From positions 45,153,885 to 45,217,884 of the forward strand of contig CAIIXF020000001.1 of assembly GCA_903813345.2 (NCBI GenBank): a stretch of 64,000 nucleotides of DNA. Direction: 5' to 3'. Of this stretch, positions 6,101-44,115 are shown in pieces. Source of the DNA: Owenia fusiformis. Taxonomy: Eukaryota > Annelida > Polychaeta > Sabellida > Oweniidae. How positions within the stretch are numbered: the stretch's first letter is position 1; each line of letters opens with the position of its first letter. The position numbers and the translations under genes were made by a program. Under the pieces are notes generated by a model. The model ran no database searches. It was not told the origin of the DNA and saw only the letters and a program-made list of their open reading frames with translations.

Positions 6101-9100
6101 AAGTCGTGTTTATGCATTTTCCTCTTAACCATTGCACCTTTTAATGCAAAAGCTATATAACAGGAAAGCTTGTCAAGTGGTGTCTTACACTTATCGAAAC
6201 GCCTAACATCAGTGGTTTACCAACTATTCTTTTTTCACCGATTGTTGATCTTGAGCATTTATATCGTCTTTATTGCCCATCAAAGCAATTGCGCTAATTC
6301 CCCTCTTATTTATTACGGCTATATGATCATTTTTCGCAATAACGTTTACAAGTGGAGCGTTGTAAATAAGGAATATGAGGGTGTTTCGCTTTGGATGGGT
6401 ACTCTGTAATGATTTCAAGTGGATCACAATTAAGGTTTGTCGATCGCTATGAAGGAAGAACCACCTACTTTGTAATGAATGAGGAATCTTAATCAAGTAT
6501 ATTTTTGCACTTTTTACCCAAGTGCATCATCATCATACTCCTAGTACATTTTCAAAATCGCAATTGTTTGTCAGAACCAAATGGAAAACGCATCAAATCA
6601 AACGTGTTTATTTTGATAGTTCCTGATTGTTTTTCAAAAGCCAATTAGCATATTTCGTGGAGTATAAAAACAGATATGGATAATCGGCAACACATGAACG
6701 TTATCACGGTGACATAGCGTTAATCAATGGAATGAACAAATATCCTGTTGTTACCGCTTGTTGTCATGGAAAACGATGTAAATTCATCTGGTCGAAAAAG
6801 GTTCCAATCACAAAAACATGGCCGTTTCACATCTTGCGTAGGAAATCATATACCCGATACACGTGTAGTTAGTTAGAGGTGGTTTACCATTACATTCCGT
6901 TAATCTAATCAAGTACAGGTAAAAAGAGATACTTCAGTCGTTCTTTAAATATCTGCATCCAGACAATTAGACCAGTTTCCTTACATCATACATCATGCAT
7001 ACTGATACTTACTATCATTAGAAGCAAAATTCAAAATTTGTTCCGTGCATACACAATACATGTACATAATTAATCAAAGAGCCGTGGCAACATTTTTGAT
7101 GTCTTAAACATATATTATATAATTTTATTATGTATCGATACATATTGTAATTCTCTAATATTTTGAACCATCAAGGTAATGGCTGAAGAAATTCACTGGT
7201 TAAACAGTTTTGTCCTCTAAATAAGAATCGTGGTTCTAAATTGTTTTCTTTTCACAATTGGCCGTGGGAAACATAGTCAATGGTTCAGGGTTATCAGAGT
7301 GGGTTCTGCCTGTTTAGGAAAGGCTCATACTTTATGTTTCAAGGTCTGTATTTGCATTTAATGTTAAATATACTTATCCCAGTTAAAACTTCTCTGGAAT
7401 TGACAAAGTTCTGTTTAAACAAAAAAATGTAGTTACCGTTTGTCCATTTGAACATCTGATCATCATAGGATTTGTAATGTCTTTCTCTCTCGAAAAAAAA
7501 GTTTTTAAGAATTTGTTACACGCAAAAATAAAGTGTAAAAACGGCAAAATTTGAAATGGCAATTTTGTAAAAACTGGATAACATGCTAAATATGGGTTGA
7601 CTTCCTTTTAGTCATAGGATAGGCGTAGGCTTGATTGATCAATTGGTTGTCATTTCTTAGAAAGGGTAGGTCTAGTGAATAGTGATGTTTTGATGTTGTA
7701 TGCAAGGAATTCGCATTTTCCACACCATCTTGTGCCTAAACTGCACTAAATCATTCTAAAGCATAATTCATTGATTCTGTGATGCTTCCCAGACCACTGG
7801 AATTGAGATAAATTTAGGTAAGGCATGCTACAAATACATCAAAAGCCCCCATTTATATTTCAAACTAGCTCAAACTTATCTTTCAATATTATCTTAGATG
7901 AATATTAGAATTATCCCAAAATATATACCATTGGTCAAGGGATAACCCTTGTAATTATCTAATATCTATTCAACGCGAACGTAGAATTCAGTGGCGGGCA
8001 GGTGTATTATATCTCGCTGCTATCTTAGAACGTATAGCTACTGTATGACTGGCGGATCTCTCCCCCCCTTGGATGGGCCCAGAAAATTATTTTTGCTCAG
8101 AAAATTTGTTGGCCCAAATACTTTTAAGGGGCCCGATTAATGGGTCTTTTTGGTATAAATGGGCTTTTTAAGGCCTTTCTTTTTTAATTTCAGGCCAAAT
8201 TACCAAGAAAATGGGCCGGAATTTCAAAATTTGGACCCACTTTTTAGGGCCAGAGTTTTTTTCGCGCAAGCGTATTTTTCATACTTCAAATATGGGCCCC
8301 TTGTTGGTTCCTGCTGGATCCGCCCCTGTGTTCTCGTGCTCGATATTTGAAGATCTTTATTTTCATATCTTATATATCACAAACACGTCTTAGAATGGGC
8401 TAAACAACGCAAATGCCTTAACGTAACGTAACAGGCGTTTGAGATGACAAAGCAGAGCAGGATTAATTGTGTTTGTAATATAAAACGGGATTGACATTTG
8501 GAAAAGGTATTAGGAACTTAAAGATTCTGTTTCTGCCTGCAAAGTCACTTTTTTGACAGCCTACAAATGAAAGACATAAAAAATATTTTTCACTTATCAC
8601 ATTTCATGTACATATTTTGAAAAACAATAGAACAAATAGAATAGACTATTGAAATTAACAAATTAAGTTAAAATACAAGACACTCGTCATAGACTATCCA
8701 TTAGATCAGAGAACATATGCATTCCTATTTAAAGACGAAAAAGATACGATGATTAGGAATGGATTTGGAAATTGATAATGACGGGGAAAACTATGATGCA
8801 ATAGTGAATGTCTTACATGTGAATATTTCCCAAAAATGTAGCCCATTTTTGTGTGAGCACACTATCCTAAATGAAGAGCATTTTTCTGAAAATTGATAAT
8901 GACGTGGGAAAACTATGATGTTAGTGAAGGTCTTACATGTGAATATTTCCAAAAAATGTAGCCCATTTTGTGTGAGCACACTATCCTAAATGAAGGCCTA
9001 AAAGTTTAATTTCACAATTTATAGTCATATATTATATCAATTCGAAGCTCTGTGTTGGTTTTGCGAGATCACAATAACCACAATGGGCAACATTTGAAAA

Positions 9101-9190
9101 CACAAAAGACTAACGTAACGTACCTGTCGAATATATGACCACAAAAAGCAATGTTAGTCCGATATTACAACTTGGAGTTCTTCCTGGCAT
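103..9190 (-). CDS. LDL-receptor class A repeat protein, 5' part (runs off left edge)
   Basis: Predicted exons, minus strand in coding order: 9190-9124, 2236-2126, 508-401, 231-103. All junctions are GT-AG and phase 1, so the frame stays open (415 nt, about 138 aa). Exon 1 starts [20 protein letters not shown], a signal peptide with a hydrophobic core. Each later exon is one LDLa domain ending in an acidic calcium-binding motif ([24 protein letters not shown]). LDLa modules bind calcium and mediate ligand binding in secreted or membrane proteins. Joining exon 1 to exon 2 puts the first domain directly after the signal peptide. Oddly, all three domains have four cysteines, not six. The LDLa exons are certain as domains; linking exon 1 across a 6.9 kb intron is inference, and unseen exons may lie between. 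The 3' part lies outside the window, so the full protein cannot be named. Confidence 0.75.
509..2125. other. Intron of the LDLa gene, no other feature seen
   Basis: AT-rich DNA between LDLa exons. I see no RNA gene, further exon or clear repeat. A short TAACG microsatellite-like run (near 277-293) lies in the next intron, between 232 and 400. Confidence 0.5.
5421..5632. mobile_element. Inverted-repeat transposon relic, GGGCCC-type
   Basis: Begins CACTGGCGGAT followed by a G/C-rich run, and continues with repeated GGGCCCA and AAAATTTGG words in both orientations. The same start and interior style occur at 8047-8328, so these are two diverged copies of one non-autonomous family. The right end is not clear. 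The open frames here come from the repeat. Confidence 0.55.
8047..8328. mobile_element. Non-autonomous DNA transposon with GGCGGATC terminal inverted repeats
   Basis: Left terminus GACTGGCGGATC, right terminus GGATCCGCCCCTG; these are inverted copies of a GGCGGATC end. The interior holds GGGCCC, GGCCC and AAAATTTG words in both orientations and has no coding capacity. GGCGGATC-type ends recur in many marine invertebrate genomes, and some have been attributed to hAT-like elements. I see no clear target duplication here, so the superfamily is uncertain. Confidence 0.6.
8768..8997. repeat. Tandem duplication, period about 120 bp, two copies
   Basis: The stretch starting AAATTGATAATGACG at about 8768 recurs at about 8888. 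It runs through the shared block GTGAGCACACTATCCTAAAT with only a few differences and small indels. It is non-coding. Confidence 0.85.
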
Positions 9191-9435
9191 CATTATTACT
9201 ATAAATGACCAATGGTCAGTCAGTCCTTCATCCTTACAATAAGTTGTATTTGGTGTTGTATAATCCAGTAGTCCTTGGTGGGACTGCGTTTCACAGTAAT
9301 CAAAAACTTGATAAAAAATATTAGACGTGGAATGTAAAAAAAAATTGCCTTGAGTATCCTTACAATTGGATAATTAACACCGGCTCTACTGGTAGTGTCA
9401 GTGAAGATTCGAGATACCAAACGCGAAGTAAGTTC

Positions 9436-9443
9436 TTATATAA
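9436..9443 (-). promoter_or_regulatory. Possible TATA box of the LDLa gene
   Basis: TTATATAA lies about 245 bases upstream of the proposed start codon at 9190 on the minus strand. The motif is palindromic and common in AT-rich DNA, so support is weak. Confidence 0.25.
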
Positions 9444-9831
9444 AGTGCAATGGGAAGGATAGCGCGGCTTTAAATTACATGTTGATAAGAAGGGGGTGCT
9501 GATTGGTAGGAATCAGTGAGTAAACACAAGGAAAAAGTCCACTTCCATGAGCTAAGCTGTTAATGGTTATGCGATAGGATTGAAACTAAATTATGCACAA
9601 TGACCTAAAAATATAGTTGTTGTAGGAAAATGACATCGTCCTGAAACAACATGTCCTAGAAGTATGTTGCTGTCCATTTTTAAGGATAGTACTTACAAAT
9701 ACTCTTTCCTGTTACATTTTTATTTATCACATCGTTGTCGTTTTTGTAATGTTATTATGTCAGCTCCAAAAGCGGTGACATATTGTTGTGGTTTCCAACT
9801 TAATTGTGACGGCAGTTTGCGTCCAGTCGTC

Positions 9832-9870
9832 GGCGGTCGGCGTCTGTAACAAATGGCAGGCTGTGACATG
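9832..9870. repeat. Dispersed repeat, copy 1 (TCTGTAACAAATGGCAGG core)
   Basis: The core TCTGTAACAAATGGCAGG, preceded by GGCGGTCGGCG and followed by GTGACAT, recurs at 44157-44196 and more diverged at 19811-19838. It is probably one end of an interspersed repeat. The flanking DNA is not alignable by eye. Confidence 0.6.
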
Positions 9871-10101
9871 TGTATGTCTTGTTTGTTTTGACATAACTCT
9901 GTGAGTGATGATGAAATATTCTTGAAATTTAGATACCAGACGGGCATCTGAAAGTTCCACAGGAAAAACTAATCAACTTAGTTTTAGAGAAAACCATCAT
10001 CATATACATCGAAATATATCATCATATCATCATCATCATATATATCTGAAAATGTCATTAAGTAACATTGCTTAGTTTTAGAGAAATACTTGTTTTAGTA
10101 G

Positions 10102-10123
10102 CCTCGTCCATTATTTCCACATT
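10102..10123. repeat. Terminal fragment of the CCCATTATTTCCACATT element
   Basis: CGTCCATTATTTCCACATT matches the terminal repeat of the element at 17517-17798 with one base missing. No second end was found nearby, so this looks like a solo relic. Confidence 0.45.
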
Positions 10124-10220
10124 CAGCTCTAATGGAGATCATTTAGACCATGTTAACTAAAATGTTATCTTCCGTAAGTAGTATACATTTCTATGAATTT
10201 TTCATCATTTCTGTTTAATT

Positions 10221-10245
10221 TGGGTACAATTTTTGGGACACCCTG
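10221..10245. repeat. Solo end of a CAGGGTGTCCC element
   Basis: Reads TTTGGGACACCCTG followed by TA, matching the right terminus of the element at 18929-19561 and its TA target. A similar shorter end, AACACCCTG before TA, ends at 18798. No partner end is seen. Confidence 0.5.
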
Positions 10246-10332
10246 TAGGCCTCATGGCTTTAGTAAAATGCTTGCATTTTCTCTTTTTGCACGACGACCT
10301 ATAATAGAAATTATATTTTTTGATTGATGATA

Positions 10333-10492
10333 AGCACTGCTCCACAACTAGTTACTTTGACGGAACGTCAATGTAACAAAATGGATGAACTTCCTGGATA
10401 CGAGTTTTTGGTTTTCTCGATTTAAACTTACGTATAAGTCATGTTGCGGATTATCATTTGGCACAAAGCTAGACAATATAGTCTAGAGAAAG
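10333..10492. repeat. Diverged single arm of the 20.35-21.28 kb foldback element
   Basis: Aligns by eye with the left arm of the foldback element: GCACTGCTCCACAACTAGTTAC against CACTGCTACCCACCTAATTACAC, and CGATTTAAACTTACGTATAAG against CGATTTACACCTACTTATAAG. It lacks the nested TA-target insertion present in the other copy, so it shows the empty site. Confidence 0.6.
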
Positions 10493-10499
10493 GACATGC

Positions 10500-11369
10500 C
10501 ATTGACGCAAGCATTTATACTCGAGGTTCTGCACCACAGAATGAAGCATTCATTGTGCAGCTGTTCGTCCATAAATGTGATTTTCGTACTTGTACACAGT
10601 GTTATAGACGACGATTTAAGAAGATCACACTTACGGATCCATACTTACGGACGTATAGAACTGCGCAATAAATGCTGACGTAATCAAACGCTTCATGAGT
10701 TATACGTTATACTGGAATAATAAACATGTTATAAATGAGTGGCAAAATCTCTTTATAGTGCTCCCTGTACAAAATGGAACATTCACGATATGTGACAGTT
10801 TGGAATTGTTAGACCACACTGCCATCTTTCTATCGATCATAGATCGATACTAAAGACCTGTTATACTTCATTCATACAATAAAACTCATTAATGCAATAA
10901 ATGTACAGTACATCAAACATCATTGGATTTGCAATATTTATACGAAGTTTTCAATGCTTTGCAGATTTTTATTATTGTGCGCTTATTCCCGAGTGAAAAA
11001 TTGGGAAAAATGCAGAAATTCCATTCTCAGGATTTTGAAATAGAGCTTACCGTACAATGGATAGTGCTTCACGCTCAAGATTTAATATAGAATGTTAAAT
11101 TGACTTATGAATTTTACTGAAATCTTGATTGTAACTAAGTTGTAGAAAACTGATGAATTTCAATTGAATAAATTACTTCAACATATTATGTTATGAGTAG
11201 TAATATTCATCGTGTGAAGGCTTAATTGCGAACGTTAACAATCTGTATGGAATATTTAATCATTCAATTTTCTAGTCTTTTTTAGAAATCAGATCAAATA
11301 CAATACCATACCAAAACAAACAGATCTCACATATTCATAAATTAAATTTCTCTTATTGAAGTAATGGGT
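10500..11369. other. Intergenic, no feature seen
   Basis: AT-rich DNA between the repeat relic and the 3' end of the first H1 gene. Short open frames at 10441-10678 are not protein-like. Confidence 0.5.
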
Positions 11370-11385
11370 GGCCCTGAGAAGGGCC
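11370..11385 (-). terminator. Histone mRNA 3' stem-loop (minus-strand H1)
   Basis: On the minus strand: six-base stem GGCCCT, loop TCTC, stem AGGGCC, then ACCCA. This is the SLBP-bound processing signal of replication-dependent histone mRNAs. It lies 31 bases after the stop codon. A purine-rich AATAAGAGAAA follows and could be the U7 snRNA-binding downstream element. Confidence 0.95.
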
Positions 11386-11415
11386 TTTGTGTTTGTGTTA
11401 CTGGTGTGAATCAGT

Positions 11416-11946
11416 CTATTTCTTGGCTGCTGGCTTCTTTGCGGCCTTCTTGGCGGGTTTCTTGGCAGCGGGCTTCTTGGCTGCTGGTTTCTTGGCTGCT
11501 GGTTTCTTGGCTGCTGGTTTCTTGGCTGCTGGTTTCTTAGCTGCTGGTTTCTTGGCTGCTGGTTTCTTGGCGACCTTCTTGGCCTTGGGCTTCTTTGCCT
11601 TCTTGACCTTCTTGGGTTTCTTGGCCTTGGGCTTCTTTGCTTTCTTGGGCTTCTCTACTTTGCCAACTTTGAAGCTGCCTGATGCTCCGGTTCCCTTGGC
11701 TTGTTTGAGTGTGCCTGCTGTTACTCCACGTTTAAGAGCAAGTTTAACTTGTGCGTTGACTGAGGCATCACCACCGAGTCCTTTGAAGTTAGCCTTGATG
11801 TATTTCACGATGGCTTGTCGGGATGATCCAGTGCGTTCCTTCAAAGCGCTGATAGCTGCGGCGATCATCACGCTGTATTTAGGGTGAGCAGCTGGTGCCT
11901 TAGGCTTGGATGCCTTCTTGGCCTTGACTGGTGACTTTGCAGACAT
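11416..11946 (-). CDS. Linker histone H1, replication-dependent copy 1
   Basis: Encodes 176 aa with no intron. The winged-helix globular domain is at about residues 20-95 ([18 protein letters not shown], then [11 protein letters not shown], and ending [12 protein letters not shown]). A basic C-terminal tail of [11 protein letters not shown] units follows. Linker histone binds DNA at the nucleosome entry/exit site and compacts chromatin. The start is fixed by MSAKSPVK and by a conserved block directly upstream shared with the second H1 gene. The long opposite-strand frame of FLAAG repeats is only the antisense of this tail. It differs from the copy at 15225-15755 at a few positions (Y/F in [14 protein letters not shown] against GADASINAH) and in tail repeat order. 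Confidence 0.97.
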
Positions 11947-12021
11947 GCTGAGAGTTTTGCGATCGCTGTAGAATTTCTACTAAGATTTGCAATAGAATAA
12001 TTTCCCCTCTCTATATTGTTA

Positions 12022-12031
12022 CCTTTTATAG
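12022..12031 (-). promoter_or_regulatory. TATA box of minus-strand H1
   Basis: CTATAAAAGG on the minus strand, about 75 bases before the ATG. It lies between the shared CTGACGTCCGCG motif and the 5' leader. Confidence 0.8.
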
Positions 12032-12038
12032 TGCGCTA

Positions 12039-12050
12039 CGCGGACGTCAG
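12039..12050 (-). promoter_or_regulatory. Shared H1 upstream motif CTGACGTCCGCG
   Basis: The same 12-mer lies upstream of both H1 genes (also 15121-15132, plus strand), a little upstream of each TATA position. TGACGT is a CRE/ATF-like core. Conservation between copies suggests a functional element or recent duplication. Confidence 0.55.
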
Positions 12051-12059
12051 AGAACAACA

Positions 12060-15000: not shown

Positions 15001-15120
15001 GAGTTTCTAGAAGTGGTGGATATTCATTGTACAAAGGTGTTCTGGAAATTGGTAAGAAACACAACTTAAAATTTAAGTGGAACATTTTAATGGACGGACT
15101 CGCAATCCAGATATCTTTCT
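12060..15120. other. Spacer between the two divergent H1 genes
   Basis: About 3 kb of AT-rich DNA. No core histone gene, other exon, tRNA or 5S gene was recognised. A GC-rich patch GCGCTCCCGCAATTTATTTG lies near 13669. The open frames at 12366, 12955, 14621 and 14987 are not protein-like. Confidence 0.5.
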
Positions 15121-15132
15121 CTGACGTCCGCG
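15121..15132 (+). promoter_or_regulatory. Shared H1 upstream motif CTGACGTCCGCG
   Basis: Identical to the block upstream of the minus-strand H1 at 12039-12050, about 100 bases before the start codon. Confidence 0.55.
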
Positions 15133-15137
15133 TGGCC

Positions 15138-15148
15138 TCTAATAAAAG
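15138..15148 (+). promoter_or_regulatory. TATA-like element of plus-strand H1
   Basis: TCTAATAAAAG occupies the position of CTATAAAAG in the minus-strand copy, with one base departing from TATAAA. The leader after it is strongly conserved between the copies. Confidence 0.55.
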
Positions 15149-15224
15149 CGGAGTCAAAGCCAGAGGGAAATTATTCATTTGTAAATCTCAGTAGAAATTC
15201 TACAGCGATCGCAAAACTCTCAGC

Positions 15225-15755
15225 ATGTCTGCAAAGTCACCAGTCAAGGCCAAGAAGGCATCCAAGCCTAAGGCACCAGCTGCTCACCCTAAATACAGCG
15301 TGATGATCGCCGCAGCTATCAGCGCTTTGAAGGAACGCACTGGATCATCCCGACAAGCCATCGTGAAATTCATCAAGGCTAACTTCAAAGGACTCGGTGC
15401 CGATGCCTCAATCAACGCACACGTCAAATTGGCTCTTAAGCGAGGAGTAACAGCAGGCACACTCAAACAAGCCAAGGGAACCGGAGCATCAGGCAGCTTC
15501 AAAGTTGGCAAAGTAGAGAAGCCCAAGAAAGCAAAGAAGCCCAAGGCCAAGAAACCCAAGAAGGTCAAGAAGGCAAAGAAGCCCAAAGCCAAGAAGGTCG
15601 CCAAGAAACCAGCAGCCAAGAAGGCAGCCAAGAAACCAGCAGCTAAGAAACCAGCAGCCAAGAAACCAGCAGCCAAGAAACCAGCAGCTAAGAAACCTGC
15701 AGCCAAGAAACCCGCTGCCAAGAAGGCCGCCAAGAAGCCAGCAGCCAAGAAATAG
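15225..15755 (+). CDS. Linker histone H1, replication-dependent copy 2
   Basis: 176 aa, intronless, nearly identical to the minus-strand H1. The order is a short basic N-terminus ([18 protein letters not shown]), the globular winged helix at about residues 20-95, and an AAKKP-repeat tail ending in AAKK. Differences from copy 1 include IVKFI for [14 protein letters not shown] for GGDASVNAQ, and two KKAAKKP irregularities in the tail. Codons differ at many synonymous third positions (for example GCC/GCG and ACC/ACT), so the copies are old enough to have diverged silently while protein and control elements were kept. Regulation should be S-phase-coupled, given the stem-loop 30 bases after the stop. 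Confidence 0.97.
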
Positions 15756-15785
15756 ACTGATTCACACCGGTCACAAAAACACAAA

Positions 15786-15801
15786 GGCCCTTCTCAGGGC
15801 C
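15786..15801 (+). terminator. Histone mRNA 3' stem-loop (plus-strand H1)
   Basis: GGCCCT-TCTC-AGGGCC followed by ACCCA, identical to the other copy. ACAAAAGAGAG at about 15813 is a good candidate for the purine-rich U7-binding downstream element. Confidence 0.96.
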
Positions 15802-15829
15802 ACCCATTATTTACAAAAGAGAGATTGAT

Positions 15830-16540
15830 TTATGAATTTTGCGAAATAGATTTAGCATTTTTACTCAAATCGTGTCTCATTCAGATTGATACTCTGTCTA
15901 TTTGTTTGATATAAAGAATCAAAATATTTTATCCTCAAAATAAATGCGGATAGTTGATATCGACATTTACTTTACATTTGAAACTCTAGAAACGGATTCT
16001 TTTGAGATATATTATATTGACATATTGGTCAGAATACCAGAAATATTACTTAAATCTATTATATTATAGCCTCTATATATTTCTGATTATTGTTTTAACA
16101 TAACATACATGTACATTTATAGTGTTTGTACATGTCCTGGTCCAAATATTTCAGTTGTGTGCTGTCATCTGAATCTGATTTGTATGAATGTATTTCACAT
16201 TTGTGTCTTCTGTAAGGTCTTTTGAAATTCTTTGACAAACCTAAACAGATAAGTATTATGTAGTTTCTCTCAGAAATAATTAAGCGAAGCTTTTCTGTGG
16301 ATATGTTCTTGAAACAATTGTTTTAATGAGATCCAGCAGTGAAAGTACCAAAGAAAAAATTAAAAGACTATCCATTAGCTTTAATGTCATGTTTAAGAAC
16401 CCATATTCTTACCATCGAAAATATATCAACTTGAGTACTTCAGAACTTTTTGTTGGCTCTGAGATGAAATGGGAACAGATTTCTACCATAGGCAGAAGTG
16501 ACATCTTTGAATCAATGCATTATTATGATTTTGAATCTAC
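15830..16540. other. Intergenic, no feature seen
   Basis: AT-rich spacer between the H1 stem-loop and the poly(A) signal of the minus-strand gene that follows. No coding or repeat signal recognised. Confidence 0.5.
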
Positions 16541-16544
16541 AGCA

Positions 16545-16550
16545 TTTATT
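16545..16550 (-). terminator. Poly(A) signal AATAAA of the unrecognised minus-strand gene
   Basis: AATAAA on the minus strand, 44 bases after the stop codon at 16595, in the expected place for a short 3' UTR. Confidence 0.5.
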
Positions 16551-16594
16551 CATATATTGCAGTGTTTTTACATATAGATGTCACTCAATAACGT

Positions 16595-16940: not shown

Positions 16941-17390
16941 CTTTTATGGTCTAACTATCATCATCAGTGATGTGAGATGACGGAACAGATCTAACCAACA
17001 ATGTTTTGCTTTTTGTTTAAGAACCTTTTCAAAATATCTAAGCACGAGTATCAAAGGGAAGACAAAAAACTGTAAATAAATCTAGCAAGAAAAGAAAACC
17101 CTGAGAGTAAACCTGTCATAAGAAAAAAGACATGTATCCAAAAACCATGATCCAAAGTGAAAAAAAATAATGTCTAACACCCCCCCCCCCTCCTCCTTCC
17201 TCTCCAATCGGGAGCCAATGACCAAAACACCATACTGAAGTCATTGCAACTACATGTTGAAGAAAAAAATAATGTGATAGCCAAATCTCATAACATCAAG
17301 AATAGTAGACACCATATTCAGTCTCAAATTATGTGGGATAGACAAAATCCAGTCTCGAAGCCCATGGGCAATTCAAATGCTTAACACATG

Positions 17391-19859: not shown

Positions 19860-20352
19860 AAGCAATGGAATCTAGTGCTGCCATCTTTTATTCAGCTTTT
19901 AATTTGGGCTAGAGTTCCATTCACTTACATGCTATAATCTTGGCAAAGTGGCTTAATTTCATGATTTATCAAAGAGTCTTAGTTGAATCTATATAAAACT
20001 TGAATGATATACCACTTGATGACCCTGTTTAAGTACATGTTGTGATTAAACATGCAAATGTTGGTTGACATACAAATAATCCAAGGTTTTAAAGAATTTT
20101 AGCATTGTATCTATGGAGATTTGGTCCAAGTTTTTTTTAAATTGTCATAGAAAATTATTCAAACTACATAACTGTGTAAATCAAAGCTAATATAGGAGAA
20201 AACAGTTCACTGAATTCAAATATGCCATTCAAAAGAAGGTAATGTAAGCCATTAGTCTAATATGTAAATCTTTTAAAATCCCACAAAAAACGTGATTTAG
20301 CGAGATTTCAAAGGCTATATGGAAACTATACTATTCTTACAACTTCCAATAA
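19860..20352. other. Intergenic, no feature seen
   Basis: AT-rich DNA between repeats. No exon or RNA gene recognised. Confidence 0.4.
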
Positions 20353-21282
20353 TCACTGCTACCCACCTAATTACACAGACGTATCGTCAGTGTATCATGG
20401 CGGAACTACTTCCGGGACTAGGTTTCGGTAAGATTTTTTTAATAGAGAATTTTCGTTATACGTATTGATTCTACTTATACGGATACGTATACGTATGTTT
20501 ATAAGTATAAGTATAAGTATAAGTTACAGATTAAAATCATGTTTCGTTATAAGTATAACATTAGAAACTTATATCAACAACGGCCGGTATAATGGACATA
20601 AAGTTCTAACACTATGTCACTGGGTGTTATGAATATCAATAATGTATGCAAGACAATGAAAAAAAGATAAGGTAACTTCTTACTTATAAACCCTGTTCTA
20701 ACTGTAAAAAACGTATAGCCTAACGAATAGAGAGCGCAAGTTGTGATGACGTATTACACAAAAGCCATACGTATAAGTATAAGTATAAGTATAAGGGGGC
20801 CAATTACGTATAACGAAAATTCTCTATTACCCGATTTACACCTACTTATAAGTCACGTTGTGGATAATAATTTGGCTCGAAGTTAAGGAAGATAGTCTAG
20901 TTTGAGAATGTGTCGATGGTTTTAGGTTTTATATGTTTATAAAGAAGACACAATTCACGTATTTAGTCCCTCGCTTTTGTTACACTGACGAACGACCAAT
21001 ATCAGTGTAATATTGGCAATATTAATGCCGATCGTCAGTGTAACAAAAGTGAGGGACTAAATATGTGAAATGCGTCTTCGTTAACATACCAAACCTAAAA
21101 CCATCGACACATTCTTAAACTAGACTATCTCCCATAACTTCGAGCCAAATTAAAAACCACATCGTGACTTATATGTAGATGTAAATCGAGAAATAAAAAT
21201 ATCTTACCAAATTCAAATCCCGGAAGTAGTTCAGCCATGATACACTGACGATACGTCTGTGTAACTAGGTGGGTAGCAGTGA
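20353..21282. mobile_element. Long foldback element (interrupted by a nested insertion)
   Basis: Outer ends TCACTGCTACCCACCTA and its inverted copy, with ATAA on both sides as a possible 4-bp target duplication. The arms pair almost throughout: CAGACGTATCGTCAGTGTAT, then the CTACTTCCGGG, TCGAG/CGATTTACA and GATAGTCTAG blocks, to a centre of TTTTGTTACACTGACG and its inverse. The left arm is split by another element at 20442-20827. No transposase. Confidence 0.85.
20442..20827. mobile_element. Nested MITE with ATAGAGAATTTTCG ends and TA target
   Basis: 386 bp, terminal inverted repeats of 23 bp starting ATAGAGAATTTTCGTTATAC, flanked by TA on both sides. It sits inside the left arm of the foldback. 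The interior contains arrays of ATAAGT units near both ends, in both orientations, and ATACGTA palindromes. Its absence from the right arm and from the related arm at 10333-10492 proves insertion after the host element formed. Confidence 0.85.
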
Positions 21283-21365
21283 ATAATTGAACAAATACTG
21301 TTTAGACTGACTTCAATTTCATCTACATGATTTTAGAAGTTCGTATCTGACTTTATATTTAAGAT

Positions 21366-22216: not shown

Positions 22217-22533
22217 GTATTACATACCTAGCGAAGCATTTGTATGAAAGTCAATGGGAAAGTTAGCGAGCTATATCCACCGATATTGCCCGATTACCCC
22301 GATATAGCCCGCTTACCTCGTTTTGATATTAGATTTCTTTAATAACCATGATAATATCATGACGTCACGTCATTGATACAAAGTAACCATGGGAACAAAT
22401 GCATGTAATACATCAGTTATGTCACTATGACGTGAAATATGCCTTCGTTCTTGCCCAAATATAGAGCCTCCCAAGGTCGGCCTATATTGGGAGAACTCAG
22501 GCATATTTCACGTCATAGTGACATAACCTCTAA
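22217..22533 (+). mobile_element. 317-bp module, copy A (inverted twin at 33254)
   Basis: Almost identical to the reverse complement of 33254-33570; I count two differences. The second third is a long palindrome built on TTATGTCACTATGACGTGAA. It may be the core of a larger element at about 22111-22655, whose outer parts carry inverted TTACCACC words. No coding capacity. Confidence 0.85.
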
Positions 22534-22659
22534 TTATTGCCCGACTAAAGTCATTAACTCCCGACACAATATTGCTCACGTCAATATAGCAATTTAAATG
22601 CCTTCTCAACTAGTTCTAAAACCCCTAGAACAGGCCCTGCAAGGTGGTAATGATGGGGA

Positions 22660-23382: not shown

Positions 23383-23803
23383 GGGGATTAACTGGAAACG
23401 AAGACACCATGTCTTCGTTTCAACATGACCTGACTTCTGGAAAGAGAATTTAGTAATATTTTTTTGTTTTCTCGATTTATTCGCTTTAATATTTTTTTTG
23501 TTTTCTTGATTTCGTCACTTTTATCCTCTAAATTTCAACTAAATCACGCCTAATCATCGGCGTCAAAAAATAGCGGAGTACAGTTTTTGTACGGTGACGC
23601 AAATCGACTGCTTTGGAGCAAAAACTATGACAAGGATTATAAAAAAAATTAATTTGATGAAAACAAATACGATTTCATGTGAAATAAAAACAGCATTCTC
23701 TTAGAAATGGTTTTAACTTTCTAATTATGATAAACTTTTTACGAGCACTGTTCGGATTTTTTCTGATTTCTTTTGGTTATTATTTTCCCTGCCGTCTGAG
23801 AGT

Positions 23804-23950
23804 ATGGATTATTTTTATGAGAATATGTATTTGTTAAATACACATTTTAGAACGGGCGACGATTCAGCAAATAATCATACATTGTGTATATTTAAAAAAG
23901 ATCAGATTTGTACTGTGACGCATAAGCTGTACGGTGACGATTCCTTATAA
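23804..23950 (+). pseudogene. Left-arm copy of the foldback element's 48-codon frame
   Basis: Reads MDYFYENMYLLNTHFRTGDD and ends IFKKDQICTVTHKLYGDDSL. It matches the right-arm frame at 39 of 48 positions with no indel and the same stop. Upstream, the frame corresponding to the right arm's first 43 codons is broken by a deletion. Function unknown; possibly a vestige of a transposon protein. Confidence 0.35.
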
Positions 23951-24860
23951 TTTGTGAGAAGTAATATAAAGAACTCATTATTTATTTCAAATCGCATAAG
24001 TTTTAGTGTGGAAGTTCAAATGTTGATCCAGTCAAGTATCCCTCGTATAAATGTTGTCAAATGATCAGTATCAGGCGAAAGTTACTGCAGTCACTTTTGA
24101 ATTTAAGATGTTGGAAAGGAAGTGTCGATTTCGATACTTTTAGTTTTATTCGAATTAAACTTCTTTACAATTTGCGTTATGCTTTGATGAACTAAATGAG
24201 ACTAAAATGAAATGAAATGGAAGTTCTGGAGTACGATCATTTGTTCATATATAATGCATGGGCGCCACAGCTCAACGATATCTTCCACCGCTTATGGAAG
24301 GTTACTGGAAATGTATGATACGGTAAGAATCATGAAACCAAAAACTCAGTATATTTGTTGCTATGTTATTGATGTTTTTAAACAAGTGATGTCACAAGTA
24401 AATCACATCTTGCACGTGTGACTTTTTAGGATGAAAGGTGCAATATCTTGCATGGGGTAAAGATGGCTATATGCTGTCTTTTTTAGTCATATGAGAAAAG
24501 CCTGGTTTAGTTCAAATGATATCAAAGCATATCGTCAACTCTCAAATAGTTTGTTCCATGAAAACTAAAAATATTGAAATACTTCCTGCCCGCCATCTTA
24601 AATGCGAAGGTGACGGCCGTAACCTTCGCTTGATACTTACCAGTGATAATGTACATGTAGATCTGACACGTCTTTACCTCTTGTTCAAACAGTAAGCTTA
24701 GAGTTGAATGTGTTTCAGTATTTAATCCTTGTTATCAGAAAGGAATGGAAACATAAGAATTGATCTTTTTCAATGTTGAATGGGATTCAACATTTGAATT
24801 CCACACAAAAACTTATAGAATCACAAGCTAATACTGAGCTCATATATTACACTTCATAAA

Positions 24861-25136
24861 TTATAAGGAATCGTCACCGTACAGCAGATGCGTCACCGTA
24901 CAGATTTGATCTTTTTTAAATATATACAGTGAATGGTTATTTGCCAAATCTTCATCCGTTCTAAAATGTGTAGATAACAAATACTTATTCTCATAAAAAT
25001 TATCCATACTCTCAGACGGCAGGGAAAATAATAACCAAACGAAAAGTGAAAAAAAAAAACATTTTTCTTTCGAGTCGATTATTGGGGCTGATCCAGTCAG
25101 AAAAAAACCGAGCAGTGCTCGAAAAACTTTTATCAT
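24861..25136 (-). CDS. 91-aa open frame in right arm of the foldback element
   Basis: Starts MIKVFRALLGFFLTG, includes a hydrophobic stretch (FFFSLFVWLLFSLP) and ends IFKKDQICTVTHLLYGDDSL. The last 48 codons are shared with the left arm. The codons for LYGDD are themselves the element's TGTACGGTGACG word, so similarity may reflect DNA structure, not protein function. I recognise no family. Confidence 0.3.
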   Translation of the reverse strand: MIKVFRALLGFFLTGSAPIIDSKEKCFFFSLFVWLLFSLPSESMDNFYENKYLLSTHFRTDEDLANNHSLYIFKKDQICTVTHLLYGDDSL

Positions 25137-25822
25137 AATTAGAAAGTTAAAACCATTTCTAAGAGAATGCTGTTTTTATTACACTCGAAATCGTATTTAT
25201 TTTCATCAAATTAATTTTTTTAAAACCCTCATAATAGTTTTTGCTTCAACTCAGTTAATTTTCGTCACCGTACAGAAAAGTGTACTACTGTATTTTTTGA
25301 CGCTGTACGGTGACGCCTGCTTCCGCGATGGTTAGGCGTGTAAATATCTGATATTTGGCACGTATATGATACGTGTACATTCCGGATTAGAACACACATA
25401 ACGTAATTGTTTGGATATTTATGAATCTTTTCCCTCGCTAAGGAAACGAAGACTGTTAATAGCTTTCTGAAGCATGAAACGTCGTATCCCAAACAATTGC
25501 GCTATTTATTTCGGAGGTGAAATCATATTTCTATAGGGGCTAAACCGGAATGTGTGCCAAACATTTTAGTGAAATATGGATGATATTAAGCGATTAAATC
25601 GAGAAAAATCTTCGTTCCGGAAGTCCGGCCATGTTGAAACGAAGACAATTGTCTTCGTTGCCAGTTGATCCCCGGTGACATTGACTGTGCGAAAGTGCAT
25701 GTATGCATTGTAACGTAGATGGTATCACATATAGCATTTACAGCCTTTACTTCAAGGTCTCTTCAAGGTTCGTACGACAAGCTGCATTTTCGAATATTTG
25801 AAAGCTCACATTTCGTTCAAAA

Positions 25823-31513
<5,691 letters not shown>

Positions 31514-32281: not shown

Positions 32282-32641
32282 CGTACACCAATGGGACAAT
32301 GTCCGACTTTATCCATTTTGTCCTAACACATCCACTCTTGTCCCCCGGGCATCATGCGACATCATGGGACAATGTCCCACATTTTGTCCGATGATGTCTG
32401 AAATATAGCGCCATTTTGTCAGAAAATGGTCATATGATTATCACCTGATGAAATGGGACATAAAGGGACAAAATCGGACAACTTGGAACAATGTCCCGGG
32501 GACAACCTGGGAAAAGGGACAACGTGGGACAATTTGTCCTCTGATGTCCCATGGGAATGTCCGAACTTGTTCCTTCATGTCCCATGAAAATAGTTTACTC
32601 AATAACTCCCTTGATGTCCCAACATGTCCCATTTGTGTACG
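32282..32641. mobile_element. Element with TACACCAATGGG ends and GGGACAATGTCCC words
   Basis: 360 bp. Inverted ends CGTACACCAATGGGACA and TGTCCCATTTGTGTACG. The interior is packed with GGGACA/TGTCCC words in both orientations, for example AATGTCCCGGGGACAACC. CTAGC occurs just outside both ends. The two frames crossing it (32441 minus, 32448 plus) are repeat-derived. Confidence 0.85.
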
Positions 32642-33073: not shown

Positions 33074-33121
33074 TTGTGACAACGGTATCTGACTTTACCG
33101 TTGTCAGGCTATTCCGGGGTG
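33074..33121. repeat. Solo end of the 26.1 kb ACACCGG MITE family
   Basis: TGTGACAACGGTATCTGACT then TTACCGTTGTCAGGCTATTC and CGGGGT, matching the right inverted repeat of 26078-26664. Confidence 0.75.
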
Positions 33122-33253
33122 AATACGCCATTTGACTCGACATTTTCCATCCGATATAACCAAATCAGAGACATATACTCTGACCAAATCAACACATTTG
33201 TAGAAGAAATGGCATGTTATCATTGCAAAAAATATGTAAAATTCTACCTATAT

Positions 33254-33570
33254 TTAGAGGTTATGTCACTATGACGTGAAATATGCCTGAGTTCTCCCAA
33301 TATAGGCCGACCTTGGGAGGCTCTATATTTGGGCAAGAACGAAGGCATATTTCACGTCATAGTGACATAACTGATGTATTACATGCCTTTGTTCCCATGG
33401 TTACTTTGTATCAATGACGTGACGTCATGATATTATCATGGTTATTAAAGAAATCTAATATCAAAACGAGGTAAGCGGGCTATATCGGGGTAATCGGGCA
33501 ATATCGGTGGATATAGCTCGCTAACTTTCCCATTGACTTCCATACAAATGCTTCGCTAGGTATGTAATAC
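33254..33570 (-). mobile_element. 317-bp module, copy B (inverted twin of 22217)
   Basis: The reverse complement of 22217-22533 with about two changes. The outer parts seen around copy A are missing here, so only the core was copied or conserved. Confidence 0.85.
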
Positions 33571-33648
33571 ACCAGTTTATGGACTCGTCATGAACATAAT
33601 TGTGTTACGACTAAATTCATTTTTCTGTGGCAGTTTTGCCGTATACCC

Positions 33649-34361
33649 AGATAGCACAACTCTGATGGGCCAACGTTGGCCCAACAACTACGTATCTGTT
33701 GGCCCAACGTTGGCTGTCGTGGTTGGCCCACCGTCGCTATGTCCATCGGTCCAACGTTGGTCCACCGTCGCTATGTTCATTGGCCCAACGTTGGTCCATT
33801 GTTGGCCCAACACGATTTCAAGCTACGTTGGCCCATAGTTGGCCCACTAATAGTAAGAAGACTGGTTGGCCCGACGTTGGTCAACAGTTGGTCCGACAAT
33901 GTTAAGAGGGATGTTGGCGCATTGGCGGTCAAAACTGGTTGGCCCAACGTTGGTCAACAGTTGGGCCAACTTTGGCCCAACGATTACGTATATGTTGGTC
34001 CAACGTTGGCTGTCGTGGTTGGCCCACCGTCGCTATGTCCATCGGTCCAACGTTGGTCCACCGTCGCTTTCAAGCTACGTTGGTCCATTGTTGGGCCAAC
34101 CATATTTTCTTTCGGAGGGCCAACGTTGGGCCAATGGACATAGCGACGGTGGGCCAACCACGTCAGCCAACGTTGGTCCAACATTGGCAGCCACCACAGA
34201 ACCAACGTTGGCCCACTGTTGACACAATTTACTTTTTGTACAGCCATTGTTGGCTCCCTGGGCAGCCAACGACAGGCCACATGAATAATTTGCCAACTGC
34301 AACCTTGAGAACCAATGGTCACCGATAGCGACGTTCACCCAACGTCTTTGTGCTATCTAGG
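33649..34361. mobile_element. AACGTTGG-word element, unit 1 (CCCAGATAGCAC ends)
   Basis: Left end CCCAGATAGCAC, right end GTGCTATCTAGG. The interior is almost entirely degenerate GGCCCAACGTTGGTCC words, in both orientations because the core AACGTT is self-complementary. It includes a direct repeat of GCTATGTCCATCGGTCCAAC at about 33738 and 34032. All long frames here (GPTLVQRW-type peptides on both strands) are by-products of the words. Confidence 0.85.
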
Positions 34362-34369
34362 CATTCAGT

Positions 34370-34640
34370 ACTGCTACTGTAAATGTGTTCACATATTATA
34401 TCCGTTTTTCATCAATAAAATATGGTGGCTTGTTTTTCCATACTAAATATATTTGGTAGCCTTATAAGTGGTTTCAACTGTATAACAAGGCGAAAATCCA
34501 TATTTTTGAGGTGAACAACATTATCAGATAATTTTGAAAGAAAATATTACAAAAATTTACCTTAATTTTTTTTAATGACAGCTGGTATGTTTTCTTCTAT
34601 TTTTAAGCATTTGCAATGATTTATCGATAGGTGGCTTCCT
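34370..34640. other. AT-rich segment between the two AACGTTGG units
   Basis: Contains no AACGTTGG words. It may be host DNA between two insertions or the remains of an element interior. Confidence 0.4.
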
Positions 34641-34720
34641 GGTATTAGCGGCAGCCAACAACGGGCCAACGTTGGCCCAACTACAATTTGCCAACTGCAA
34701 TTTTGCACTGATCGATAGGT

Positions 34721-35614
34721 CCCAGATAGCACATCGCCAATGGGCCAACGTTGGGCCAACAACTACGCATCTGTTGGCCCAACGTCGGCTTGAGCGGTTG
34801 ACCCAACGTCATTTTGTCCAGCGGGCCAACGTTGGTCCAACAGTGGCAAAAAATTATATTGGCCCAACGTTGGTCCAATGTTGGCACAGATAGCACACCG
34901 CCAGTGGGCCAACTTCGGGCCAACAACTACGCATCTGTTGGCCCAACGTCGGCTTGAGCGGTTGACCCAACGTCATTTTGTCCAGCGGGCCAACGTTGGT
35001 CCAACAGTGGCAAACAATTATGTTGGCCCAACGTTATAGTTCCGCCCTAAAATTGCTAACTTCGGACCTGATATCATTGTCGGCCCAACGTTCTACCGAC
35101 CCTAAAATTGTGTCAATTACCAACGTGGTACCAACGTTGGCCCAACGTTAGTGTACCACCCTAAAATTACTATAATTTGGGGCTAACAGAAGTGTGATTT
35201 GCCGACCTGAAAATAACGTCGGCCCAACGTTATAGTTCCGCCCTAAAATTGCTAACTTCGGACCGAAATAGACACGCTGCTTGCCAACCTTGCACCGACA
35301 TCGGTACAACGTCAGCGTACAGCCGTAAAATTGCTGACTTCAGGCCAACAGAAAAGTGTACCTTGACGACCTCGTACCAACGTCGGCCCAACGTCAAAGT
35401 ACCGCCCTAAAATTGCTAACTTCAGACCGAAAAAGATGTGTCATTTGCCAACCTTGTACCGACGTCGGTACAACGTGAGCTTACAGCCGTAGAATTGCCG
35501 ACTTCAGGCCAACGGAGAAGTGTGCCTTGACAACCTTGAACCAACGTCGGCCCAACGTCAAGGTACCGACGTAAAATTGCCGACGTTGGGCCAACAAAGA
35601 CGTGCTATCTGGGT
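34721..35614. mobile_element. AACGTTGG-word element, unit 2, with tandem repeats
   Basis: Ends CCCAGATAGCAC and GTGCTATCTGGG. It contains a 164-bp tandem duplication starting TGGGCCAAC at 34741 and 34905, then about three further units with CCGCCCTAAAATTGCTAACT (about 35042, 35237, 35402) at roughly 165-195 bp spacing. TA precedes the left end of unit 1 (33647) and follows this right end (35615), so the whole 33649-35614 block may be one TA-target insertion. Confidence 0.8.
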
Positions 35615-35840
35615 ATGTTCATAGGATGGTATACGAACGGTTTCCGAATAGTCATTGTGTGAACGAGGTTACTGCCCTCTTATCCAGTCAGTGTTCCTAT
35701 AATTATGTTCGAATGGTTGTTACCGAGCCAGTAAATCTGAAATAAAATTCGAAGACAGTTCTGTCTTGATTATCTGGATGTTGTTATTGGCTCCTCAACT
35801 ATTTTTGATGTAGCCCATGGTATAATTTTGTTTTCAAATA

Positions 35841-36329
35841 CAGTAGAACCTGTATATCTGAACACCTGGCTAATCTGAACACCTCCCAATCTGAACACTT
35901 TTTTCGGTCCCATTTTTTCCTCCCATTGACTCCAATGTTAAAAAATACTTGAAATGTGAACACCTCTCAATTTGAACAGTGAACAGTCATATTTGAAAAA
36001 TTAGCCTGTCTAATCTGAACACTTTTCATAAAGTTTCACATGTTTCATTGAAAATTGCTCAAATGTTGTTATGATATCAAAACTAATGGGAAAAATATTT
36101 GAATGGTCTTGATTATAATAGGGTTTTCCAGCATGACTAGATTCATTCGAATCAAATTTTTGAAATGCCATAAAGCTATGTGGTCAAATGAACTATAAAG
36201 TTGAGAATGTGTTCACATTTCTTCAGAATTTGGAATCTCGCGAATGCAAAAACCTCAAAATGTGAACACCTCCTAATTCGAACGCTTTAAGCCGGTCCAA
36301 ATGGCGTTCGGATTAGACAGGTTTTACTG
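35841..36329. mobile_element. pogo/Tigger-like MITE, TA target duplication
   Basis: 489 bp, ends CAGTAGAACCTGTATATCTG and inverted CAGTAAAACCTGTCTAATCC, flanked by TA on both sides. CAGTARAACCT ends with a TA target are typical of pogo/Tigger elements. The interior repeats CTGAACACCT / TGTGAACACC words. No transposase. Confidence 0.8.
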
Positions 36330-36745
36330 TATGTAAGAATTGGTTCTATTCACTTCTTGTTTCACCCTTGGTATACGCAGCTAACGAAAATTGACCGGTA
36401 CGGGTCAAAAGCTGGACCGGTACGGGTTAACGGTTTTATTTGAATTTAAAATAGCCATAACTCAATATTGACTTCCTCGTGTCTAATTTGATATATGATG
36501 CCTCCCGATGCTGTTAAGTACCCCAATTTTTTACAGATTTTTAAACGGACCAAAACTCTCTAAATGCGCATTTATGCTCTTTTCTCTCGAGAACGACTGT
36601 CTCATTTTCACGATAACTTTTATTTAGTACTTCTAACATATAAGATCTATTTTCCCCATCAAGGTATGATGTAAATGACATGCTATTTACATCTTGTGAG
36701 TTTCAATGACGCGCGTTTGATTTTATAAAAAATGCCAAACTTTGT

Positions 36746-36892
36746 GACAAAGAATTTCATCCTGCTTGCAGCGAGAAAACGGACCGGTTCGGGGCAATCT
36801 GCTTGCAGCGAGAAGACGGACCGGTTCGGGGCAATCTGCTTGCAGCGAGAAGACGGACCGGTTCGGGGCAATAGCTAATGAAATTCTTTGTC
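36746..36892. repeat. Three 37-bp minisatellite units framed by a perfect 15-bp inverted repeat
   Basis: Units at 36762-36798, 36799-36835 and 36836-36872 (CTGCTTGCAGCGAGAAAACG then GACCGGTTCGGGGCAAT). They are flanked by GACAAAGAATTTCAT at 36746 and its exact inverse at 36878-36892. The GGACCGGT word also occurs at about 36392 and 36414. The frame at 36683-36871 is repeat-derived. Confidence 0.9.
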
Positions 36893-36899
36893 AAAATCT

Positions 36900-38860: not shown

Positions 38861-38864
38861 ATTA

Positions 38865-39074
38865 ATGATGGGTAAATTCATATTGCGATATGTTGCTATT
38901 GTTTTACTGCCAATGATGTGTGTACATGTTATTCAATCGCCTAATTTCATAAATGGTCGAGAGGCGGGCTGGGAACGACCATGTGGAGAGGGGAGGCTAA
39001 TGGCATCGATTCGTGGATGTCCAAGTATTTTAAATGATTTGTGTATCAGTAAAATTGTTTATAGGTCTTATTAG
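38865..39074 (+). CDS. Small secreted-peptide candidate, insulin/relaxin B-chain-like
   Basis: 69 codons with a true ATG. Residues 1-22 (MMGKFILRYVAIVLLPMMCV) look like a signal peptide. Then WERPCGEGRLMASIRGCPSI contains Cys-Gly and a Cys-x11-Cys spacing, the spacing of an insulin-superfamily B chain, with Ala and Ile at the relaxin-like positions 7 and 9 after the first Cys. Against this, the usual Leu at +4 is Arg, a third Cys follows (NDLCISK), and I found no A-chain CCxxxC exon downstream. If real, the exon would end at a donor before or near the ORF end. It may equally be chance. Confidence 0.22.
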   Translation: MMGKFILRYVAIVLLPMMCVHVIQSPNFINGREAGWERPCGEGRLMASIRGCPSILNDLCISKIVYRSY

Positions 39075-39079
39075 TTATA

Positions 39080-39753
39080 TTGGTTTGCTACTCGTAAGGC
39101 TAATGAGTTGTTTGTTCGGTAAATTAATACAGCTTCATACAAGGTATAACGACAACAAGAACGGAAAGAGAATTTAAAAGGCACCAATTGATTTATTCAT
39201 AATAATACTAAATCTTTAAATTATTCAAACAAGAAATATGGTCAGCTTGCATAACGATACAAGTATGTGGTGGGTCCCGAGTTGATAAATGAAATGAAAG
39301 TTTTCTATGAAGTGTTTTAAGTAGCCATCAGTTTTGCCTGAGTTGACGCATATTTATTTGAAAAGGAATCAATTGTAGGGTTTTGTTGAAGCTGTTAAAA
39401 GGCGAATGAGGAATGTTACTTATTGTCTATGGGCGCTTTGCAAGGTGGTGTGAAAATCTTAAAAGAAACTTATGGTGTTTCATTTGTCTTCACTGAAAAG
39501 TATTGATCTCTAGAAGTACTGGTCTCACATGATAGAATATACGTTATTGCTTGATATATAGTCGGCCAACACGAACGCTGCCCATATACATCACCATCGT
39601 CGAGCCTGTCACATCAATTAAGTTGGACACACCAAACGAGAGGCAACTTATTAATTGTTTGGAAAAAACTTAAACAGTACGAAAATATAAGTGAAAAAAT
39701 AATTTGGGAAAACTTGAAAATACATCAATAAAATTATTAGCGAATTAGGAAAA
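39080..39753. promoter_or_regulatory. Proximal upstream region of the homeobox gene
   Basis: No classical TATA box at a fixed distance. AT-rich leader directly before the ATG (AATTAGGAAAA). Promoter position is inferred only from adjacency. Confidence 0.3.
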
Positions 39754-42681
<2,928 letters not shown>

Positions 42682-42768
42682 ACAGTTTCTTGTACCAGAC
42701 GTCTGTATAACGACATGTATATATAGCAGTCTGCTTTGTTTGAGTCTCTTCCCTCCTCTCTCATATTA

Positions 42769-43203
42769 GACGGAGGGTGAAGTACACATGAGGGTTTGGT
42801 GAATGAGTAGTAAGATAAAAGTACAGGGTCCTCTCTGACAATCATTTATTATTAAGACGGAGGGTGAAGTACACATGGGGGTTTGGTGAATGAGTAGTAA
42901 GATAAAAGTACAGGGTCCTCTCTGACAATCATTTATTATTAAGACGGAGGGTGAAGTACACATGGGGGTTTGGTGAATGAGTAGAAAGATAAAAGTACAG
43001 GGTCCTCTCTGACAATCATTTATTATTAAGACGGAGGGTGAAGTACACATGGGGGTTTGGTGAATGAGTAGTAAGATAAAAGTACAGGGTCCTCTCTGAC
43101 AATCATTTATTATTAAGACGGAGGGTGAAGTATACATGGGGGTTTGGTGAATGAGTAGAAAGATAAAAGTACAGGGTCCTCTCTGACAATCATTTATTAT
43201 AAC
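42769..43203 (+). repeat. Five tandem 87-bp units in the homeobox 3' region
   Basis: Units start GACGGAGGGTGAAGTACACA at 42769, 42856, 42943, 43030 and 43117, very nearly identical, including AAGTACAGGGTCCTCTCTGA and CAATCATTTATTATTAA. They begin 87 bp after the stop codon. The minus-strand frame at 42766-43137 simply reads the repeat. Confidence 0.95.
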
Positions 43204-43540
43204 GACTCGACACAGTGTCTGAGTACATTCTCTTTCGATCAGATATTATGCAAGTTTTAGTGTCATTAATTGGAGATACTAATGATATGACCAGGTATAG
43301 ATGGCGTGACAATGTTTGAGTCTCTTCCCTCCTCTGATATTAGACGGAGGGTGGAGTACACACGGGGGTTTGGTGAATGAGTAAGATAGAAGTACAGGGT
43401 CCTCTCTGACAATCATTTATTATAATGACTCGGCACAGTGTCTGAGTACATTCTCTTTCGATCAGATATTATGCAAGTTTTAGTGTCATTAATTGGAGAT
43501 ACTAATGATATGACCAGGTATAGATGGCATGGCAATATGA
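43200..43540 (+). repeat. Duplicated segment, period about 233 bp, after the 87-bp array
   Basis: The stretch from ACTCGACACAGTGTCTGAGT to ATATGACCAGGTATAGATGG occurs twice (about 43204 and 43437). A shortened 87-bp-type unit lies between the copies, so two levels of tandem duplication are combined. Confidence 0.85.
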
Positions 43541-43694
43541 ATATATATATATCATATACAAGAGATATACAAATAAACTAAATATAAAAATGTAATGCTT
43601 CTTAAAATGTAATGCTTTTTAAAATGTAAATAAATAAATATTAATTATAAAGATCATGAGTTTATTATAGACATTCTGTATATTTTACTAGAAG

Positions 43695-43700
43695 AATAAA
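43695..43700 (+). terminator. Candidate poly(A) signal of the homeobox gene
   Basis: AATAAA about 1.0 kb after the stop, downstream of a TGTAAATA Pumilio-type site (about 43625). If used, the 3' UTR would contain both tandem arrays. Confidence 0.4.
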
Positions 43701-43820
43701 GTTTTTAGTTTATGCTTATTTAGTATCCATTGCACTTTCCCAAAATGCTTTCAAGGAAAGCATAGTCTCTTTGATTACTCAGGAGTTCACCACAAGAAGT
43801 GGCTGCATATTGGCCCAACA

Positions 43821-44115
43821 TACACCAATGGGGTACGGTGGGACCTCCATAGACTTTAAATTGTGTCGGACCTCGTGGGACTTCATGGGATTTTGCCCTA
43901 TGGACTCCATGGGACTCCTTCGAATTTTACCCCATCGAGTCCCATGAGTTCCCACGTTCTTTCCATGGGACATCGTGTGACTCTTGATGGTGTGACTAAA
44001 TCACATCATTTCCGTTGGACTCGATGGGTCATGGTGGGACTCACTCAATGGGGCAAAGTTAAAGAGGTCACATGGGACTCCTAGGGTTTCGATGGGATTT
44101 TGCCCCATTGGTGTA
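43821..44115. mobile_element. Element with TACACCAATGGGG ends and CATGGGACTC words
   Basis: 295 bp with perfect 13-bp inverted ends TACACCAATGGGG / CCCCATTGGTGTA. The interior uses TGGGACTCCATGGGACT-type words and their complements. The first 12 bp of the ends equal those of the 32282-32641 element, yet the interior words differ. Confidence 0.9.

Follow-up and report, generated by a model that had tools for sequence, protein, structure and literature searches.

Why should the interior of a short inverted-repeat element be written in one short word? This question is raised by a 64-kb stretch of the Owenia fusiformis genome (contig CAIIXF020000001.1, positions 45,153,885 to 45,217,884; hereafter the window; G+C content 34.6%), for which a preliminary description had listed seven elements, each with its own terminal inverted repeats and one dominant word. 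Judging from the sequence, we propose that six elements, E3 to E8, are probably short non-autonomous DNA transposons, and that their words would be recognition sites of their own transposase or of an accessory DNA-binding protein.

Six elements carry an excess of one word

Each of E3 to E8 is known from a single copy in the window, and terminal inverted repeats are seen at the exact ends of all six.

E3, 26079-26663: terminal repeat beginning CACCGGA, about 50 bases; word CCGTTGTC in 9 copies (at most one mismatch), with a central cluster at 26306-26434
E4, 27515-27828: 14-base terminal repeat CAGGCCTGTCAACT; word GTCACGC in 8 copies, 7 of them on one strand
E5, 32286-32637: flanked by TA at both ends; terminus CACCAATGGGACA, with one mismatch on the right; word TGGGACA in 22 copies (at most one mismatch)
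E6, 33646-35613: composite; flanked by TA at both ends; terminus CCCAGATAGCAC; dyad CCAACGTTGG in 42 copies (at most two mismatches)
E7, 43823-44113: flanked by TA at both ends; terminus CACCAATGGGG; word TGGGACT in 12 copies (at most one mismatch), 11 of them on one strand
E8, 35841-36329: flanked by TA at both ends; terminus CAGTA(G/A)AACCTGT; word TAATCTGAACAC in 11 copies (at most three mismatches)

The terminus set of the word elements comprises CACCAATGGG, CCCAGATAGCAC, CAGTAGAACCTG, CACCGGA, and CAGGCCTGTCAACT. Beyond base 13, the terminal repeats of E8 align only with a one-base gap (by eye). The interior of E6 holds end-like copies at 34350-34361 (matched by eye) and at 34721.

For every stretch, we took the best 8-letter word, allowing one mismatch and counting both strands, and scored it against dinucleotide-preserving shuffles (40 per stretch, and 10 only for the two stretches longer than 1000 bases, 33648-35615 and 23389-25667). 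The word excess is beyond doubt in E5 (18 copies at 32284-32640; shuffle mean 4.5, maximum 6) and E6 (69 copies at 33648-35615; mean 10.9, maximum 12). It is clear against their own shuffles in E7 (10 copies at 43825-44115; mean 3.9, maximum 6), E8 (14 copies at 35841-36329; maximum 8), and E3 (10 copies at 26078-26664; mean 5.2, maximum 7). E4 is the weakest of the confirmed elements (8 copies at 27520-27829; mean 4.0, maximum 6).

The claim of one dominant word per element thus holds for five of the seven listed elements, E3 to E7, all of which beat every one of their own shuffles. It fails for the two listed as beginning at 8047 and 23383, where the claimed words are not the excess word.

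8051-8324: listed stretch; GGGCCC three times; ends matched by eye only
23389-25667: long fold-back; 12-mer TGTACGGTGACG in 7 copies (at most one mismatch), three per arm plus one

The stretch at 8051-8324 shows no word excess (6 copies; shuffle mean 5.1, maximum 7). The long fold-back does rise above its 10 shuffles, with the AT-rich word TATTTTTT (26 copies versus a maximum of 23) and not with the claimed 12-mer, six of whose seven copies mirror each other across the arms of this single fold-back.

E8 was missing from the earlier list and came up because a stretch flagged by a blind scan extended beyond the end of E6. Its word has 83 matches window-wide at up to three mismatches, so that about 0.6 would be expected in the length of E8, where 11 are seen.

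Had ordinary inverted-repeat elements shown a similar word density, the claim of the preliminary description would have been refuted. The comparison set consisted of nine inverted-repeat stretches, chosen and bounded by hand, and eight of them speak against that outcome: their best word stayed within the shuffle range (equalling the maximum in one). The sole comparison stretch above its shuffles was 20344-21291, with TTATACGT (18 copies versus a maximum of 11, 40 shuffles). This stretch consists of nested fold-back elements, in which the AT-rich words TTATACGT and TATAAGTA exceed the shuffle level.

The blind scan covered 1275 overlapping windows and flagged 14 stretches at a stricter threshold. 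Six lie in word elements (20.3-21.0, 27.5, 32.1-32.8, 33.5-34.4, 34.5-36.15, and 43.7-44.2 kb). The other eight fall on histone H1 coding repeats (two), an 87-base satellite (one), and AT-rich stretches (five). Neither 8047 nor 23383 nor 26078 was flagged at this threshold. An open inverted-repeat search returned 316 pairs, many surely by chance; the listings omit 17 self-alignment pairs from 33600-35650 as well as the inverted pairs lying in 33640-35620.

In five of six elements the outermost words lie close to both ends

We read the words as transposase-binding sites because, in all but one of the six elements, the outermost words lie 6 to 19 bases from either end, and this remains the best-supported reading, each family also having a different word. 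Measured from the exact ends, the left and right distances are 14 and 14 bases in E3, 6 and 6 in E5, 19 and 19 in E6, 16 and 14 in E7, and 13 and 14 in E8. In E3, E5, and E8 the terminal repeat includes or adjoins the outermost words, and the matched distances there follow from the repeat itself; it is the outermost words of E6 and E7 that add to the symmetry.

Several of the words were also said to be palindromic, and a strand ratio near 1:1 and non-random spacing were named as what would support the claim. Each of these properties belongs to some of the elements. Only in E6 is the word mainly self-complementary. The palindrome of E5 is formed by just three opposite pairs at a spacing of 8 among 22 words, its unit being the half-word. 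Balanced strand use of the top 8-letter word is found in three of the five confirmed listed elements (5:5 in E3, 10:8 in E5, and 34:35 in E6); strand use is skewed in E4, E7, and E8, both orientations being present in all six. Allowing any spacing, non-random spacing is confined to E5 (7 of the 21 gaps measure 10 bases, the commonest adjacent spacing; P = 0.0027) and E6 (11 bases, 10 of 41 gaps, P < 0.0001). Helical phasing as a general rule was rejected, as only these two pass.

Several observations weigh against the words being binding sites of a transposase. The outermost word of E4 lies 14 bases from the left end and 64 from the right, leaving the last 60 bases free of words. The two outermost words of E6, and likewise those of E7, are oppositely oriented relative to their ends; the E6 unit is nearly palindromic. 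The words of E4 (7:1 at 27520-27829) and E7 (8:2 at 43825-44115) are one-sided, and spacing is not significant in E7 (P = 0.87), E3 (P = 0.26), or E4 (P = 0.36) when any spacing is allowed. The five longer reading frames scanned with Pfam, to which the scan was confined, gave one match, histone H1, and no transposase. Selection on the words is something we infer, each element having been studied as one copy.

The background is not empty either. From 200 random 300-base draws, we retained the 158 that do not overlap tested stretches; one held 18 copies of its top word (H1 coding repeats), one held 10, and at least six held 8. These match the counts of the weaker elements, so raw counts alone cannot single the latter out. 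In the blind scan, 62 of 1072 off-element windows beat all 40 of their own shuffles. The corresponding figures inside the elements are 2/8 for E3, 2/2 for E4, 3/3 for E5, 31/36 for E6, 2/2 for E7, and 3/6 for E8.

How the arrays may have formed

If the words are sites for a transposase or its accessory protein, E3 to E8 would consist of little more than two termini and, between them, an array of short sites at which the protein binds. The coding interior would have been lost first. Words and word-bearing segments may then have been duplicated during post-excision repair until they filled the element, the words being kept since added sites would raise binding, while the spacers drifted. In E6, the duplicated segments would have arisen with strand-switching, as suggested by segments of about 70 bases that are present in both orientations, words and spacers together, and by tandem units of 82 and 164 bases. 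Of the proposed amplification by slippage or snap-back, copying in both orientations shows up in E6 alone, in these segments. No self-alignment longer than the words was found in E5, E7, or E8 at an E value of 1e-4. The absence of longer internal similarity fits older arrays in which only the words are still alike, or word-by-word gain.

The same features of E6 would be expected from neutral expansion, in which slippage, gene conversion, and strand-switching in repair multiplied near-end sequence without selection for binding. Its 82- and 164-base units and its doubly oriented segments, where spacers travel with the words, favor such a course. However, the words of E5, E7, and E8 have no longer common flanks, and the information around the words drops off in E5 and E7, a comparison biased by the sites having been picked by the word. 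We consider neutral expansion unlikely, if still credible.

The words might instead bind a host chromatin protein or transcription factor, the elements simply carrying host sites. E6 does contain 49 TTGGC/GCCAA half-sites versus 7.2 expected, which we take to be of nuclear factor I type. However, the full TTGGCN5GCCAA site occurs in none of the six elements, and a separate word in each family better fits element-specific proteins. The six elements lack any full site for nuclear factor I or CENP-B, and a search for p53 half-sites alone gave one in E5 (0.04 expected) and none in the other five. We consider a host protein quite improbable as the explanation.

Least probable of all is that the words are hairpin- or cruciform-forming DNA selected for mobility: folding does go beyond shuffles (z = -4.7 in E5, -3.9 in E7, -2.3 in E4, -4.8 in E3, and -14.0 in a part of E6, the last with 20 shuffles), but the stretch at 22217-22537, which has no word excess, folds at z = -11.5, more strongly than all but one of the five word stretches for which folding was computed, and in E4 and E7 the words stand mostly on one strand.

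One terminus, two words

E5 and E7 have the terminus CACCAATGGG in common (with one mismatch at the right end of E5), as well as the core GGAC. The base continuing NGGAC is A in 20 of 20 copies in E5; in E7 it is T in 7, C in 2, and A in 1 of 10 (A versus T, Fisher P = 7e-6, with copies treated as independent). Elsewhere in the window, GGAC is followed by A in 89 of 217 cases. The pair, one terminus with two versions of the word, is a ready case for testing the coevolution of a protein and its site.

A wider generalization is possible, though we hold it doubtful. In the general course of animal DNA transposons, non-autonomous copies might be reduced to little more than arrays of binding sites. 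A change in the recognition protein might rewrite an entire array, leaving elements with a common terminus, such as E5 and E7, with concertedly different words. If this were true, the elements would be sponges competing for transposase, and the words would display transposase specificity directly in the sequence. Should transposase-binding arrays be confirmed genome-wide, word-filled elements would allow the recognition site of an uncharacterised transposase to be inferred from sequence alone, and they would preserve a history of evolutionary change in binding-site number and specificity.

Relation to described elements

By their terminal inverted repeats on a short element, seen in an end-to-end comparison with exact ends, E3 to E8 resemble miniature inverted-repeat transposons, although E6, at 1968 bases, is long for that class. 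TA flanks E5 to E8 on both sides, and being self-complementary it is inseparable from the terminal repeat; E4 is flanked by the 6-base repeat CTATCG (27509-27514 and 27829-27834), and no flanking repeat is seen at E3. The TA flanks of E8 and its terminus beginning with CAGT presumably resemble those of pogo/Tigger-type Tc1-mariner elements, from which E8 differs in that no transposase is seen and its inner terminal motif recurs through the interior. The portion of PMC7325037 available gives no terminal sequence.

The preliminary description regarded such elements as no described general class. This is wrong in part, as related subterminal arrays have been described, and the arrays of E3 to E8 look like a variant of a known design. 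According to PMC2613891, soybean CACTA elements carry reiterated direct and inverted subterminal motifs that are capable of stem-loops and differ between two families of one species. The likeness to this group (Tgm of soybean, Spm/En of maize) lies in the short terminal repeat, the family-specific short motif in direct and inverted orientation, and the deletion derivatives; a motif reiterated in both orientations is present in all six elements here. In contrast, those termini begin with CACTA and the motif is subterminal in a 20.5-kb element (PMC2613891), whereas the termini of E3 to E8 begin with CACC, CAGGCC, CCCAG, or CAGTA and their words run throughout the element.

Galileo, among the Foldback-like elements of Drosophila, has internally repetitive termini holding several sites for the THAP domain of its transposase, according to the abstract of PMC3688188; its termini are long tandem repeats, whereas the words here are mostly scattered, in both orientations in some elements. 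Muta1, a Mutator-like element of Aedes aegypti, is described in PMC5225508 as having a palindromic terminal motif followed by a 12-base subterminal repeat in nine copies, 3-4 bases apart, and more than 300 putative non-autonomous derivatives. It differs in its target duplication of 8-9 bases and in the confinement of its tandem repeats to the termini.

Among the matches listed in our literature search, judged by titles and the starts of abstracts and with most subscription journals outside its coverage, there was no animal element wholly filled with such words. Searching by element and by E8-type sequences likewise gave no transposon paper among the matches listed, on the same basis of titles and abstract starts.

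Word patterns in viral and prokaryotic contigs

Patterns were also searched in two collections, viral_contigs and genome_contigs, which hold viruses and prokaryotes, so that absence there says little on animal relatives. The exact pattern TTGGCCCAACGTTGGCCCAA gave no stretch in viral_contigs and one in genome_contigs; this bacterial stretch, where CCAACGTTGG occurs once, was taken as chance and rejected as a relative. One strict E5/E7 pattern of terminus plus word and two E8 patterns gave none in viral_contigs.

The E5 word at 10-base spacing (GGGACANNNTGGGACANNNTGGGACA) was found in 82 stretches of viral_contigs, whereas two permuted words gave 5 and 7 stretches. These stretches form 31 clusters by shared 21-mers, and at least two words in each orientation are present in 41 of the 82, versus 3 of 12 control stretches. 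Loci with TGGGACA words at about 10-base spacing include L029 9507-9825, L063 7012-7450, L080 3190-3400, and L036 1217-1360, among others. In four hand-picked stretches, where the words adjoin a gene or overlap its end, one protein was scanned in each, giving DUF927 together with a Cch helix-turn-helix in one stretch, AAA_25 in two (accompanied by PriCT_2 in one of these), and DNA polymerase of family A in the fourth. The viral arrays may be phage replication-origin repeats, possibly widespread; we found no evidence of their kinship to E5.

Other features of the window

A further E3 end, the only one in a self-comparison of the window, and a pair of linker histone genes were found besides the word elements.

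33074-33121, minus strand: solo E3 end; a 92% identical copy of the left terminal repeat of E3 (48 bases), words included
11333-12054 and 15117-15837, divergent: histone H1 (linker histone) pair, 93% identical, with lysine-rich repeat tails

No partner of the solo E3 end was found in the self-comparison. Near it, at 33250-33570, sits a 321-base element with a strong palindrome in its interior; a second copy of 321 bases, 99% identical and in opposite orientation, is at 22217-22537. The one H1 gene scanned matches Pfam Linker_histone, and a histone 3′ stem-loop follows each of the two genes. Three tandem 37-base units enclosed by an inverted-repeat pair are present at 36742-36896. A satellite-like tandem array with an 87-base unit (5 copies, 98% matches) occupies 42764-43536 and overlaps a 223-base unit.

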